From positions 1 to 7,864 of the forward strand of contig JAGBSA010000097.1 of assembly GCA_017632095.1 (NCBI GenBank): a DNA stretch of 7,864 bases, given 5' to 3'. The position numbers and the translations under genes were made by a program. Positions 1-7,527 of the stretch are shown here, piece after piece. Position 1 is the stretch's first letter. Each line of letters begins with the position of its first letter. Under the pieces are notes generated by a model, which saw only the letters and a list, made by a program, of their open reading frames with translations, searched no databases and was not told where the DNA came from. The stretch comes from Bacteroidales bacterium. Its GTDB lineage: Bacteria; Bacteroidota; Bacteroidia; Bacteroidales; P3.

Positions 1-544
1 ATTACTGATTTTAACTTCTGCAAGCGTTGGCAACGAAGAAAGGTCTTGGAGCGGTAATCTCTTTTGTTTGATGAGTTGTATTGCGTATGCACTTTACCTT
101 ACTTTGTTTAAGAATCTTATTCAACGCAATCACCCTCTCACATTGATGAAATGGATGTTTCTTTTCGGCTCTATAATGGTCTTTCCTTTATGTTATAAGC
201 CTTTATGCGAAATTCCGTTTGCTCAATTACCATTAGAGATGTGGGGAAAGATTGCTTACATCATCTTAGCCGCAACATTCTTAACCTATTTGCTTATTCC
301 TGTGGCACAAGTTCGCATCAGACCTACAACACTTTCAATGTACAATTATCTACAACCTATAGTTACAACATTGGTTGCAGTTTATATGGGCATGGGAACT
401 TTTGGTTGGCAAAAGGCTTTGGCGGCTGGCTTGATTTTTGCAGGGGTTTACGTAGTTACTCAAAGCAAATCTCGTAAGCAATTAGAAATGGAGAAAAATA
501 AAACGGCGTTTGAGAGTCAGCAAAACGAAGTTTCAGAAAATTAG
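1..544 (+). CDS. DMT-superfamily (EamA) transporter, C-terminal half, 5' end outside window
   Basis: This is the 3' part of an inner-membrane drug/metabolite transporter gene. The frame is open from position 2, so about 180 residues are visible and the true start lies upstream; the ATG at 68 is internal. Five hydrophobic segments are seen, matching the second EamA repeat of a 10-helix transporter. The stretch RPTTLSMYNYLQPIV, followed by a hydrophobic helix, a short turn and a last helix ending GVYVVTQSKSR, is typical of Bacteroidetes EamA proteins. The substrate cannot be inferred; members of the family export amino acids, metabolites or drugs. The hydrophilic tail after the last helix (about 28 residues, ending NEVSEN) is partly encoded by the first unit of a 21-bp repeat array, and the stop codon lies on a unit junction. 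No clear hairpin terminator follows. Family assignment is confident. Confidence 0.85.
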   Translation, partial: LLILTSASVGNEERSWSGNLFCLMSCIAYALYLTLFKNLIQRNHPLTLMKWMFLFGSIMVFPLCYKPLCEIPFAQLPLEMWGKIAYIILAATFLTYLLIPVAQVRIRPTTLSMYNYLQPIVTTLVAVYMGMGTFGWQKALAAGLIFAGVYVVTQSKSRKQLEMEKNKTAFESQQNEVSEN

Positions 545-584
545 ATTCAAGTTTTAGAAAATTAAAACGAAGACTTATTTTATT
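522..584 (+). repeat. Three tandem 21-bp units spanning the stop codon of the EamA gene
   Basis: The units are 522-542, 543-563 and 564-584. Unit 1 reads AAAACGAAG, then TTTC, then AGAAAATT. Unit 2 matches it at 16 of 21 positions and unit 3 at 14 of 21, with AAAACGAAG exact. A more decayed copy may lie at 500-520. Each junction is a stop codon in frame with the gene: TAG at 542, TAA at 563 and TGA at 584. The same unit recurs downstream of speA on the other strand. Function unknown. Confidence 0.7.
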
Positions 585-4717: not shown

Positions 4718-4960
4718 ATGAATATAGCAGATAACACAGAGAAGTTAATAAACGACGTACTCGATACAATAGAATTGTTTATCGAACAAGACTATAAAGA
4801 CATTGAGAAAACGTTTGAAGATTATACCATAAGGGTTTACATGACTACCGATAGAGATGAAAGCATTGTCGAATGGGATTATGATTTGAAAAATGCCGAT
4901 TCCTATTTGATTAACGAACAAGAGGTGATTGACAGAGTTTACGACTGCATTTCATATTAG
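4718..4960 (+). CDS. Acidic 80-residue protein of unknown function
   Basis: The ATG lies 6 bases after the rimO stop, so translation is probably coupled and the gene is likely the last of the ftsY transcript. The protein is strongly acidic, with many Asp and Glu, and has no signal peptide or membrane segment, so it should be cytosolic. Residues 5-35 look helical (TEKLINDVLDTIELFIEQDY). The segment TIRVYMTTDRDESIVEWDYD (about 42-61) looks like two strands with a charged turn, and the C-terminus returns to a helix. No catalytic motif or metal site is evident, and I do not recognise a family. Tight spacing and a strong terminator just after it support a real gene. Its position next to rimO hints at a ribosome-related or housekeeping role, but this is only guilt by association. 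Confidence 0.72.
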   Translation: MNIADNTEKLINDVLDTIELFIEQDYKDIEKTFEDYTIRVYMTTDRDESIVEWDYDLKNADSYLINEQEVIDRVYDCISY

Positions 4961-4972
4961 GAACTAAAAATA

Positions 4973-5016
4973 AAAGAAGCGGGAAATTAGATTTTAATTT
5001 CCCGCTTCTTTGTTTT
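4973..5016. terminator. Strong bidirectional terminator between the rimO operon and speA
   Basis: A perfect 17-bp stem (4973-4989 with 4995-5011) has a 5-base loop and a GCGGG core. T-rich tracts lie on both sides: TTTGTTTT on the plus strand and TTTTATTTTTAG on the minus strand. It can serve both convergent transcripts. The right arm is also the last unit of the 21-bp array behind speA (17 of 21 matches to the consensus). Confidence 0.9.
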
Positions 5017-5079
5017 AATCTACTGAAACCAAGTTTTAATTTTCTCTTTCTTCGTTTTAGAAAATTGTTTCTTCGTTTT
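4996..5079 (-). repeat. Four tandem 21-bp units starting at the speA stop codon
   Basis: Read on the minus strand, the units are 5079-5059, 5058-5038, 5037-5017 and 5016-4996. All begin AAAAC and three end ATT. The second (AAAACGAAG, AAAG, AGAAAATT) matches unit 1 of the 522-584 array at 17 of 21 positions. The first has its last 8 bases inverted (AATTTTCT). The speA stop and all four following junctions are TAA in the speA frame (first bases at 5080, 5059, 5038, 5017 and 4996). The last unit is an arm of the terminator. Function unknown. Confidence 0.75.
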
Positions 5080-6475
5080 AATATCCCAATATCTTCAACA
5101 TAGATTTGTGACTTTGCTCTTTGGCAAAAAGTTTCGTCGTCCACTCTCCGTTCTCATCTTTATCCAATATGATATGTTTAGGTTGTGGAATAAGACAATG
5201 CTGAATGCCGCCATAGCCAGCAAGACTCTCTTGATAAGCTCCTGTATGGAAAAAACCAATATAAAGAGGCTCTTCCTCATCATTTGAACACTTAGGCAAG
5301 AATACGGCATTTGAGTGAGTTTCTGCTGAGTAATAATCTTGACTATCGCAAGTTAAACCACCTAAAAACACTCTTTGATATTCGTTATCCCACTTATTTA
5401 TTGGTAACAAAATGAATCTTTGTCCAATTCCCCAAGTATCTGGCAAAGTTGTAATGAAAGAAGAGTCTATCATATACCACAACTCTCTATCGTTTTGTCT
5501 TTTTTGATCAATTATACTATAAAGAATGCAGCCGGCTTCACCAACAGTAAACGAACCAAACTCTGTAAATATGTGAGGTTCTTCTATATCCTGCTTATTG
5601 CAAATGTCCTTTATCTGAGCGAGTATCTCCTCTGCCATATACTCATAATCGTATTCAAAGCCTAAAGAGTTCTTTATTGGGAATCCACCTCCAATATCCA
5701 AAGAATCCAAATCAGGACATATTTTCTTCAATTCGCAATAAACATTCACGCATTTCTGCAACTCATTCCAATAATAAGCCGAGTCTTTTATTCCTGTATT
5801 GATAAAGAAGTGCAACATCTTCAACTTAAACTTCGGATTATTTGCAATCTTCTCCTTATAAAAGTCTACAATGTGATTATAACGAATACCTAGTCTCGAT
5901 GTATAAAAGTCAAACATTGGTTCTTCTTCCGAAGCTATACGAATACCGACATTACACTGCGTCCTTACGCTATCATTCAACAAATCAATCTCCTCTATGT
6001 TGTCAATAATCGGTATAACATTAGTAAAACCGTTCTCTACCAAATCCGCAATGTTGTCAATGTACTGAGGACGTTTGAAACCGTTACAAAGAATGTACTG
6101 ATCCTTACCAACCTTACCTTGTTCGTACAATTCATTGATTATATTTATGTCAAAAGCAGACGAAGTCTCTAAATGGACATCGTTTTTAATTACTTCGTCT
6201 AACACAAATGAGAAGTGCGAACTCTTAGTACAATAACAATAATTGTACGTTCCCTTATAATCAGTCTTAGCTATCGCAACATTAAACAAACGCTTAGCTT
6301 TCTGTATTTGAGAACTGATTTTCGGAAGATAAGTTATCTTCAACGGAGTACCGTATTGCTTTATTATATCCATTAAAGGAATTTCGTGAAAAGTCAATTC
6401 AGCATCTTCAACCTCAAATTCTTCTTGTGGAAACTCAAAGGTTTGCTCAATCAAATCATTGTACTTATTCTTCAT
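5078..6475 (-). CDS. speA: Arginine decarboxylase, short Bacteroidetes type (PLP-dependent)
   Basis: The enzyme probably converts arginine to agmatine, the first step of polyamine synthesis, in the cytosol. The 465-residue protein has the alanine-racemase-like barrel and a C-terminal beta domain of fold-type III decarboxylases. K84 in YCYCTKSSHF is the expected Schiff-base lysine. HFFINTG (222-228), the phosphate-binding loop IGGGFP (261-266) and TEFGSFTVGE (304-313), in place of the usual EPGR region, follow. GLTCDSQD (373-380) supplies the C-terminal catalytic Cys-Asp (C376 and D377). It is far shorter than classical SpeA (about 630 residues) but closely resembles the 460-465-residue enzyme annotated as arginine decarboxylase in Flavobacteriia. 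Diaminopimelate or ornithine activity cannot be excluded by sight. A -7 box lies 70 bases upstream. No agmatinase gene adjoins it. A 21-bp repeat array begins at its stop codon. Confidence 0.87.
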   Translation of the reverse strand: MKNKYNDLIEQTFEFPQEEFEVEDAELTFHEIPLMDIIKQYGTPLKITYLPKISSQIQKAKRLFNVAIAKTDYKGTYNYCYCTKSSHFSFVLDEVIKNDVHLETSSAFDINIINELYEQGKVGKDQYILCNGFKRPQYIDNIADLVENGFTNVIPIIDNIEEIDLLNDSVRTQCNVGIRIASEEEPMFDFYTSRLGIRYNHIVDFYKEKIANNPKFKLKMLHFFINTGIKDSAYYWNELQKCVNVYCELKKICPDLDSLDIGGGFPIKNSLGFEYDYEYMAEEILAQIKDICNKQDIEEPHIFTEFGSFTVGEAGCILYSIIDQKRQNDRELWYMIDSSFITTLPDTWGIGQRFILLPINKWDNEYQRVFLGGLTCDSQDYYSAETHSNAVFLPKCSNDEEEPLYIGFFHTGAYQESLAGYGGIQHCLIPQPKHIILDKDENGEWTTKLFAKEQSHKSMLKILGY

Positions 6476-6553: not shown

Positions 6554-6617
6554 TAACAATTCATCGTTTTATCACGCATTTTCTATGATTTTAATGCGAT
6601 GATTGCTATTTATTTTA

Positions 6618-6625
6618 TAATTTTG
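6618..6625 (+). promoter_or_regulatory. -7 box (TAATTTTG) of the FKBP gene promoter
   Basis: This matches TAnnTTTG exactly and lies 39 bases before the chosen ATG at 6665. It is about 65 bases from the divergent speA box, so the two promoters share a short AT-rich control region. No clear -33 element is seen. Confidence 0.6.
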
Positions 6626-6664
6626 CCATCTGAAAATATAATGAACATAAACAAGAATACAAAT

Positions 6665-7417
6665 ATGAAAAGACTAAATTTAATTATGAGTTATTCTGCT
6701 GTACTCACAATGTTTTTTGCATTCACAGCATGCTCTCAAAAAAAGCAATATGTAGATCTAGGAGACCTTAAAACACTTGAAGATTCTGCATCCTATGTAT
6801 TCGGAATATACGAAGGTATGGGAATGAAAGCACAAGGCTTTGAGATGAATCCTGAGATTTTTGCGAAAGCTTACCAACAAGCATACGCAGGAGACACTGC
6901 TGGAATGATGTCTCAAGAGCAAATGAAGGAAGTTATGCAAAAGTATCAAGCCAAGATGATGGAAAAACAACACGCTAACGCAAGACAACTGGCCATTCCA
7001 TATCGCCAAGCCGCAGAAAAATTCCTTGAAAGCAACAAATCAGCAGAAGGAGTTATCACAACAGAAAGCGGATTGCAATACAGAGTTATCAAAGAAGGCA
7101 AAGGTGTGAAACCATCTAATCCAAACGACAGAGTAAGAATCCAATACAAGCTATCACTTCTTGACAAAGACGGAAAGATAGGAGAAGCCCTTGAAGACAC
7201 ATTTGAAAGAGGAGGCGAGCCTGTTATCTTCGCATTGAACGGAGGACTAATCCCAGGAATGATTGAAGTATTGAAATTGATGAATGCAGGATCTGTATTC
7301 GATGTTTGGATACATCCTGATTTGGGATACGGAGATCAAAACAACCCAGAGCTCCCTGCAGGAAGCCTTTTGCAATTCCGAATCGAAATGATTGAAGTAT
7401 TGCCAGCAAAATTGTAA
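6665..7417 (+). CDS. FKBP-type peptidyl-prolyl cis-trans isomerase lipoprotein
   Basis: The protein catalyses proline isomerisation and probably helps fold envelope proteins. I chose the ATG at 6665 because it gives a compact lipoprotein signal (MKRLNLIM, a hydrophobic core, then lipobox FTAC with C23 lipidated). The in-frame ATG at 6641 would add eight polar residues, and one at 6599 lies upstream of the promoter. The 250 residues comprise a helical FKBP_N dimerisation-type region (about 35-120, rich in Met, Gln and Lys) and an FKBP_C domain (about 135-247), like Mip and FkpA. Active-site-type residues visible include Y161, D178 and F180, V187-I188, I196 and Y222 in DLGYG. The usual tryptophan after the IPG motif is M199. 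After C23 comes SQKK, without the acidic run linked to surface export in Bacteroidetes, so periplasmic anchoring is likelier. It is monocistronic, divergent from speA, and followed by a terminator. Confidence 0.9.
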   Translation: MKRLNLIMSYSAVLTMFFAFTACSQKKQYVDLGDLKTLEDSASYVFGIYEGMGMKAQGFEMNPEIFAKAYQQAYAGDTAGMMSQEQMKEVMQKYQAKMMEKQHANARQLAIPYRQAAEKFLESNKSAEGVITTESGLQYRVIKEGKGVKPSNPNDRVRIQYKLSLLDKDGKIGEALEDTFERGGEPVIFALNGGLIPGMIEVLKLMNAGSVFDVWIHPDLGYGDQNNPELPAGSLLQFRIEMIEVLPAKL

Positions 7418-7436
7418 GACATAGAATCATAAAATC

Positions 7437-7473
7437 AAAAGTCCCGAGGCCTAAAACTTCGGGACTTTTTTAT
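7437..7473. terminator. Terminator between the FKBP gene and the symporter gene
   Basis: AAAAGTCCCGA (7437-7447) pairs perfectly with TCGGGACTTTT (7459-7469) around an 11-base loop, and a T tract follows. On the minus strand TTTTGATTTTA follows, so it may serve both convergent genes. Confidence 0.9.
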
Positions 7474-7527
7474 TTAATCAAATATCAATCTCTTAAAAAC
7501 TTCTCTTGCTCTCCAACAAATCACTTT

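Follow-up and report, generated by a model that had tools for sequence, protein, structure and literature searches.

The window analysed here is a stretch of 7864 bases (contig C105) from genome G000, an assembly of 1.51 Mb in 288 contigs that is 73% complete. Its minus strand carries speA (5078..6475, 465 aa), which retains the name given in the first-pass annotation and whose C-terminus is the same in relatives; an ORF of 80 aa on the plus strand (4718..4960) is convergent to it. The speA stop codon opens a minus-strand series of tandem 21-bp units. The TAA of unit 1 (5060..5080, TAAAACGAAGAAACAATTTTC) is the stop codon itself (5080-5078), and in the pattern search of the genome this unit matched the doubled core pattern exactly. 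Unit 2 (5039..5059, TAAAACGAAGAAAGAGAAAAT) agrees at 17 of 21 positions with a unit at 522-542, an identity that is exact in the register of the first-pass annotation, which had matched this array to one at 522-584. Unit 3 (5018..5038, TAAAACTTGGTTTCAGTAGAT) has diverged to the dyad form AAAC-TTG-GTTT, and near-canonical form is confined to units 1 and 2. The 3' part of unit 4 (4997..5017, TAAAACAAAGAAGCGGGAAAT) constitutes the left arm of a predicted terminator, the right arm of which is provided by an in-register continuation, unit 5 (4976..4996, TAAAATCTAATTTCCCGCTTC). As previously stated, the speA stop and the four next junctions are all TAA in steps of 21 bases, with minus-strand units at 5080, 5059, 5038 and 5017. 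The terminator is a predicted bidirectional, intrinsic-terminator-like hairpin (4973..5011, both strands) between the convergent speA and 80-aa ORF; its stem (5011-4973) has 17 pairs in the minus-strand prediction and 18 in the plus-strand one, and its RNA fold scores -32.6 kcal/mol (z -6.8), while the array without the terminator folds weakly (z -2.0). The lag-21 identity over the 85 bases of the array is 0.61, a value that none of 2000 dinucleotide shuffles equalled, either at lag 21 or anywhere in the range of lags 10-40.

The window contains another array on the plus strand (521..583, units at 521, 542 and 563). The unit 521-541 encodes the final residues QNEVSEN of the upstream ORF, whose stop TAG lies at 542-544, and by direct reading a further diverged unit (499..520, TAAAACGGCGTTTGAGAGTCAG) is found within the ORF, 22 bases ahead of the next one. 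Over 75 bases the lag-21 identity of this array is 0.59, which 0 of 2000 shuffles equal at lag 21 and 2 of 2000 equal when all lags between 10 and 40 are considered; as RNA it does not fold (z -0.5). The local alignment between the two array regions was equalled by one of 1000 shuffle pairs. Two G000 proteins have tails that are the repeat unit read in frame, QNEVSEN (window 499-544) and QNQVSEN (contig C274, L020), with the stop, T-A-G or T-A-A, coming from the next unit. Elsewhere in the window, the arms of the terminator at 7438-7475, which follows the ORF 6599-7417, enclose the family's dyad core TAAAACTTCG, which may be due to chance.

Both window loci share a common unit above chance expectation, as proposed in the first-pass annotation, and this unit belongs to a genome-wide family: TAAAACGAAG-N11-TAAAACGAAG with up to three mismatches occurs 198 times in G000 (4 for the reversed control), and exact TTAAAACGAAG occurs 78 times (control 7). 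Searched in 61 genomes (G000 and 60 relatives), the pair pattern is abundant relative to its control in G014 (605/4), G005 (108/5), G003 (66/2), G004 (64/12), G008 (41/2), G033 (41/5), G016 (23/5) and G026 (22/6), and occurs 0 to 7 times in each of the other 52. The spelling of the unit varies by genome, since among the matches listed for G004 and G005 the core is mostly AAAG rather than GAAG. A symmetric double pattern, AAACNNNGTTT-N10-AAACNNNGTTT with at most one mismatch, was sought in 190 genomes of the family and reached high counts in four of 12 genera: g1 (G000 64, G005 26, the remaining four 2-3), g4 (G194 232, G197 223, G199 101, G029 98, G192 47, G008 21, the remaining eight 0-8), g10 (G014 117, G206 73, G203 27, G204 24, G205 20, G209 17, G207 12, the remaining four 1-8) and g12 (G026 268, G016 128, with the 14 of G035 and 10 of G181 near their controls of 9 and 4). 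In the remaining eight genera each genome has 0 or 1, and among 393 genomes of the order none beyond this family exceeds 10. The array-bearing samples are more AT-rich (31-41% GC) than G007 and G034 (51-55%).

The unit is two-fold symmetric, TAAAAC-NNN-GTTTTA followed by a 6-bp link, and both of its orientations are present within single arrays in one common register. The difference between minus and plus starts, modulo 21, is 15 in 170 of 292 pairs in G000, 170 of 281 in G004, 71 of 402 in G005 and 157 of 163 in G014, which places the dyad at unit position 8. Positions C6 and G10 are among the best conserved, while the middle triplet is free (GAA, TTC, GGC, GCC, GCT, AGC, AAA and others). The arms show no base-pair covariation at positions 2/14 in 70 units of G000, where A/T (16) or G/C (8) pairs account for 24 units, A/C (25) or G/T (15) for 40, and other combinations for 6; in G014 these positions are A/T in 57 of 57 units and hence uninformative on covariation. 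Conserved arms, a free triplet and lack of covariation are as expected of protein half-sites, not of hairpins. Exact cores mostly have an in-register neighbour (94/98 in G000, 42/57 in G004, 38/48 in G005, 100/103 in G014), and those within predicted coding regions number 4, 16, 10 and 1, respectively.

The period remains constant while the sequence changes. With genes and spacers called by a purpose-written simple gene finder (the sample of G006, all 43 kb of which was called spacer, being left out of the conclusions), lags 21 and 42 outrank all others between 4 and 74 in the spacers of G000, G004, G005, G014 and G026, and lag 63 is in the top five. The lag-21 excess identity in these genomes is 0.052, 0.037, 0.037, 0.047 and 0.067, respectively, against maxima of 0.0029, 0.0018, 0.0018, 0.0019 and 0.0037 in 100 dinucleotide shuffles per genome. 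In G000, 32 of 152 spacers contain a 42-base stretch with at least 27 of 42 positions identical at lag 21, and at other lags from 12 to 33 at most one spacer passes, with 0 at lag 20 and, as the exception, 5 at lag 22; in G014, 42 of 140 pass at lag 21 and up to 11 at another lag. When lag 21 is expressed as a z value relative to the spread of other lags, which is not a probability, the peak is also present in G194 (6.3), G019 (5.1), G002 (4.5) and the named speA loci L072-L093 (8.5) and L067-L071 (4.0), borderline in G009 (3.5), and missing in G007 (1.0), G034 (2.0), G031 (1.5), G012 (1.3), G024 (1.1) and L094-L146 (1.7). The AAAC-NNN-GTTT pattern is scarce in G002 (3) and G019 (0) despite their peak; the units are of the GGATTCAGAAAAG type in G002 and L067, of the TGTTAAACA type in G019, L090 and L091, of the AGTGACACT type in L082, and TCTTTATTCTAATAAAATGGA in L076, with GATTCAGAAAA common, by eye, to the units of G002 and G000. 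The strong arrays of L067-L093 have periods of 21 (12 arrays), 22 (9) and 19 (1), and no other between 14 and 33.

The spacing of adjacent units is similarly narrow: 21 in 151 cases, 22 in 20, and 16 and 17 in one each in G000; 21 in 140 and 22 in three, with no others, in G014; and 21 in 113, with 1 to 5 each at 16, 17, 19, 20 and 22-26, in G004. It is noisier in G005 (86 at 21, where the control gives 18; 33 at 17; 21 at 25). The mean number of substitutions per 21 bases is 8.4 in G000, 6.0 in G014 and 6.6 in G004. Indels generally arise at about one per ten substitutions, so that more shifted unit pairs would be expected at this divergence than were found; detection requires an intact conserved half-unit and misses broken units, so the true share of indels is higher than that seen.

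The arrays are present in some species and absent from others at comparable positions. Among spacers between conserved neighbour genes, seven have an array in one genome, none of these seven in both, and 16 are without an array in either. The five with an array only in G000 are longer than their partners (164/10, 72/18, 68/8, 112/overlap and 79/16 bases), while of the two with an array only in G005 one is longer (82 vs 52) and one shorter (251 vs 798). A counter-example, which argues against pure turnover, is an orthologous gene (contigs C274 of G000 and C25 of G005) with a 3' array in both species. The 3' ends of orthologous speA genes reveal change rather than conservation of the array. The first-pass annotation regarded orthologous 3' regions without unit structure as evidence against its proposal, and such regions exist in part of the comparison: G003, G004 and G005 have no array in 210 bases past the stop, whereas in G002, and weakly in G001, a different unit forms an array some 105 bases past it. 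The speA spacers of the latter two can be aligned and are similar over about 130 bases, diverging at the 21-bp array. Among 31 named speA 3' ends none has an array of the TAAAACGAAG unit, and those with 21-bp arrays of other units are L067 (G002; lag 21 best, 21/30 vs 16), L070 (G001, weak; 18/30 vs 17) and L076 (JAKVOZ010000017.1, 3895-4110, after its speA). A conserved array position at speA was not found, and we claim no speA-specific function.

Stop codons that coincide with the first three bases of a unit, as at speA, are in excess genome-wide. Among the 97 arrays located from -45 to +63 of a gene end in G000, G004 and G005, 14 begin precisely with the stop codon, against 0.77 expected (Poisson 1.4e-13); the stop is TAA in all 14, and some of the first units are weak. 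By direct reading, TAA is the sole stop in the three forward frames of the canonical unit, which accounts for part of the excess. The C-termini of 16 query proteins were compared (the 14 with stop-starts and two whose array lies one unit further inward), and a relative could be aligned near the C-terminus for 11, nine of them among the 14. Six of these nine align to within two residues of their own end, including speA (465/465), the only case in which the relative's own end was confirmed at that point. Arrays that abut an unchanged natural stop would require a further cause, and we suggest that joining may occur at TAAAA, which would account for the frequent start of arrays at TAA stops.

Our preferred reading, to which we assign a probability of about 0.4, is that the speA array is a copy of a genome-wide, satellite-like family of 21-bp dyads, likely block-copied and with a phase that is predicted to be kept by a protein. 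Blocks of units would likely be copied between spacers, as suggested by one clear pair, a 79-bp multi-unit block that is 98.7% identical on contigs C1 and C179 of G000 between flanks that differ and are partly array-like. A predicted homodimeric DNA-binding protein, occupying one unit after another along a single helical face, would then keep the exact 21-bp phase. The constancy of spacing together with the two-fold symmetry makes a dimeric protein the preferable candidate, and the near-absence of other spacings at 6-8 substitutions per unit, as well as the persistence of the period across differing units, appears to ask for a constraint on spacing. A dyad site with fixed helical spacing, as in a phased protein-binding array, is present, with noise in G005. 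Several observations count against this reading. Among 74 regions of G000, no block pair on different contigs other than that of C1 and C179 reached such identity (the next best, C31/C60, is 88% identical over 110 bases). Neither an array-binding protein nor a copying enzyme was found, the search for mobile-element enzymes having covered Y1 transposases (PF01797). A motif-free test for inverted phase, which gave no value for G019 and L072-L093, also reached z values of 3.1-4.2 in G009, G031 and L094-L146, all of which are without a clear 21-bp period. Moreover, the in-phase spacing could be merely inherited, since indels in the conserved half-unit escape detection and since other spacings are common in G005.

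The last point leads to the explanation that survives best among the alternatives, namely a neutral or selfish minisatellite without any binding protein, which would spread by slippage, unequal exchange and template switching at TAAAA-like homologies and would simply inherit its period. We regard it as a tenable, if somewhat doubtful, account. It agrees with the gain and loss of arrays, with their avoidance of conserved positions and with the different spelling of the unit in each genome, and it would render the in-phase inversions an automatic outcome of exchange between palindromic units. However, it fits poorly with the very small number of spacings beyond 21 and 22 among units that differ by 6-8 substitutions, and with one period across genomes with different units, unless most indels are hidden by the detection.

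It is less plausible that the arrays are the interior of a non-autonomous MITE mobilised by a transposase, whose ends have been worn away in G000; we consider this improbable. The model for such an element would be BrickBuilt of Porphyromonas gingivalis (PMC4596501), a minisatellite inside a MITE, with a 23-nt unit (AGAYCATARTATCCTCTCRTRTG; 19 copies in one strain) between a leader and a tail with terminal inverted repeats. According to the available portion of that report, BrickBuilt resembles the 21-bp arrays in being found in Bacteroidales, in intergenic, spacerless tandem units of approximately two helical turns, in many copies per genome and with frequent stop codons in the unit. On the other hand, its unit is, by eye, unlike any unit described here (21 bp, TAAAACGAAG-type), and that portion does not report the two-fold symmetric in-phase units that the 21-bp arrays possess. 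A mobile element is suggested by two genomes in which arrays are found in larger repeats, a fact that at the same time counts against our preferred reading. In G026 (contig C1, L293-L307) a common tail containing GTCAGTGCGACACGCAC, a short dyad (GTGCG-ACA-CGCAC), terminates many arrays and occurs beside arrays in both orientations. In G014 (L203-L222, e.g. contig C41 at 45404 and 9269) many arrays are embedded in interspersed, AT-rich repeats that are noncoding, up to about 960 bp in length and 72-93% alike, in seven loci of which Rfam detected only two tRNAs. However, the G026 tail and the G014 repeat are unlike each other, and neither a leader or tail nor any other common end was seen by eye at 128 array ends in G000. 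Terminal ANNTATT units, found in 16 of 76 terminal vs 4 of 88 internal units in G000 and in 27 of 39 vs 19 of 105 in G014, represent a tendency only. In G005 (L308-L312), dyad units (AAACGCCGTTT) form part of a noncoding stretch that is repeated and is located near contig ends and also near internally repetitive DNA.

A function at the RNA level, in which the arrays would act as 3'-UTR elements that end or stabilise transcripts together with a terminator, seems very improbable to us, although units 4-5 of the window do form a predicted terminator. Among 290 arrays called in five genome samples, 39 are in called genes and 35 at contig edges, and the remaining 216 occupy 54 convergent, 117 tandem and 45 divergent spacers. 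All 672 spacers of at least 42 bases, including those with arrays, comprise 103 convergent, 415 tandem and 154 divergent ones, so that convergent spacers are enriched (54/216 vs 103/672, Fisher p 0.002), as an element of this kind would suggest; G026 alone exhibits no such excess (7/56 vs 16/136). A terminator was detected in 15 of 51 array-bearing 3' flanks of the G000 sample vs 13 of 92 without an array. Nonetheless, no terminator was found in 36 of the 51, and in the others the order is stop-array-terminator in five and stop-terminator-array in nine, with the terminator inside the array in one. The first-pass annotation had the array end in its terminator, which is correct for speA, where units 4-5 are the arms, and applies to few arrays as a rule; its other generalisation, that an array follows the direction of its gene, has to be abandoned, since 45 arrays have the same orientation, 38 the opposite one and 14 are tied (p 0.51). 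Together with the arms that do not covary, the weak folding once the terminator is removed and the lack of any Rfam match at the gathering score in the window, this random orientation leads us to reject RNA structure as the basis of the family. Hairpins of the form AAACGAGCG...CGCTCGTTT, whose arms are two successive units as at speA, are followed by T-rich DNA and units on contigs C31, C60 and C38 of G000 (L001, L280, L288).

Finally, a REP/BIME family mobilised by a RAYT (Y1) transposase can be dismissed as barely conceivable: the arrays share with REP/BIME, according to the available portions of the literature (PMC2817692, PMC3116915, PMC8266576), palindromic, intergenic, high-copy units of alternating orientation in arrays, but differ in their AT-rich 21-bp unit with fixed phase and without a conserved, covarying stem, and the distribution of PF01797 opposes the link, for this domain is absent from g1, g4 and g12, is found in g10 only in G033, G209 and G210 (3 of 11), is missing from the array-rich G000, G005, G014, G016, G026, G194 and G197, and has 73 of its 85 positive genomes in genus g3, where array counts are 0-1.

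Two other types of short repeats deserve comparison. The TAACTGA heptamer direct repeats of Beggiatoaceae, Cyanobacteria and some Bacteroidetes (PMC4679880) are, as far as the available part of that report describes them, likewise short tandem sets that lie between genes and contain TAA in their unit; some of the sets overlap stop codons, and their distribution across lineages is patchy. They differ in having a 7-nt unit with one sequence across phyla, mostly just upstream of start codons, while in the 21-bp arrays the sequence varies and the period is constant; when lags 4-74 are ranked in G000, G004, G005, G014 and G026, lag 7 is in the top six of none of these genomes. DNA uptake sequences are mostly single short sites that occur also in coding DNA, and we reject this identification because the cores of the present family mostly have an in-register neighbour and only a minority of them are in predicted coding regions. 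None of BrickBuilt, REP/BIME, the TAACTGA repeats and uptake sequences agrees with the arrays in all features that were tested, and the statement of the first-pass annotation that no described family is known to have this layout agrees with our search of the open-access literature.

Returning to the preferred reading of a dyad family whose phase is kept by a protein, it is tempting to extend it further and to consider the arrays as a bacterial satellite DNA, in which length is fixed and sequence is rewritten in each lineage because a clade-specific dimeric chromosome protein reads spacing and symmetry and co-evolves with the unit. We consider this extension rather unlikely. It would be analogous to eukaryotic satellites (PMC8122249), which, from what is available of that source, are likewise tandem, with a monomer length tied to the chromatin unit and a lineage-specific sequence; the likeness is one of analogy, since the arrays described here have 2-9 units and are dispersed in bacterial gene spacers. 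If so, the monomer would correspond to two helical turns, and a clade of Bacteroidales would fill its gene spacers with it. We found no description in the open-access literature of a bacterial genome-wide, periodic noncoding repeat that combines constant length with changing sequence. Its measurable signature, the autocorrelation peaks of spacers at 21, 42 and 63, can be used on any genome. By starting on stop codons and, in two cases in G000, providing the final residues of proteins, the arrays shape the ends of genes, and they pose a testable question, namely whether their phase is read by a protein or merely inherited by a selfish repeat.
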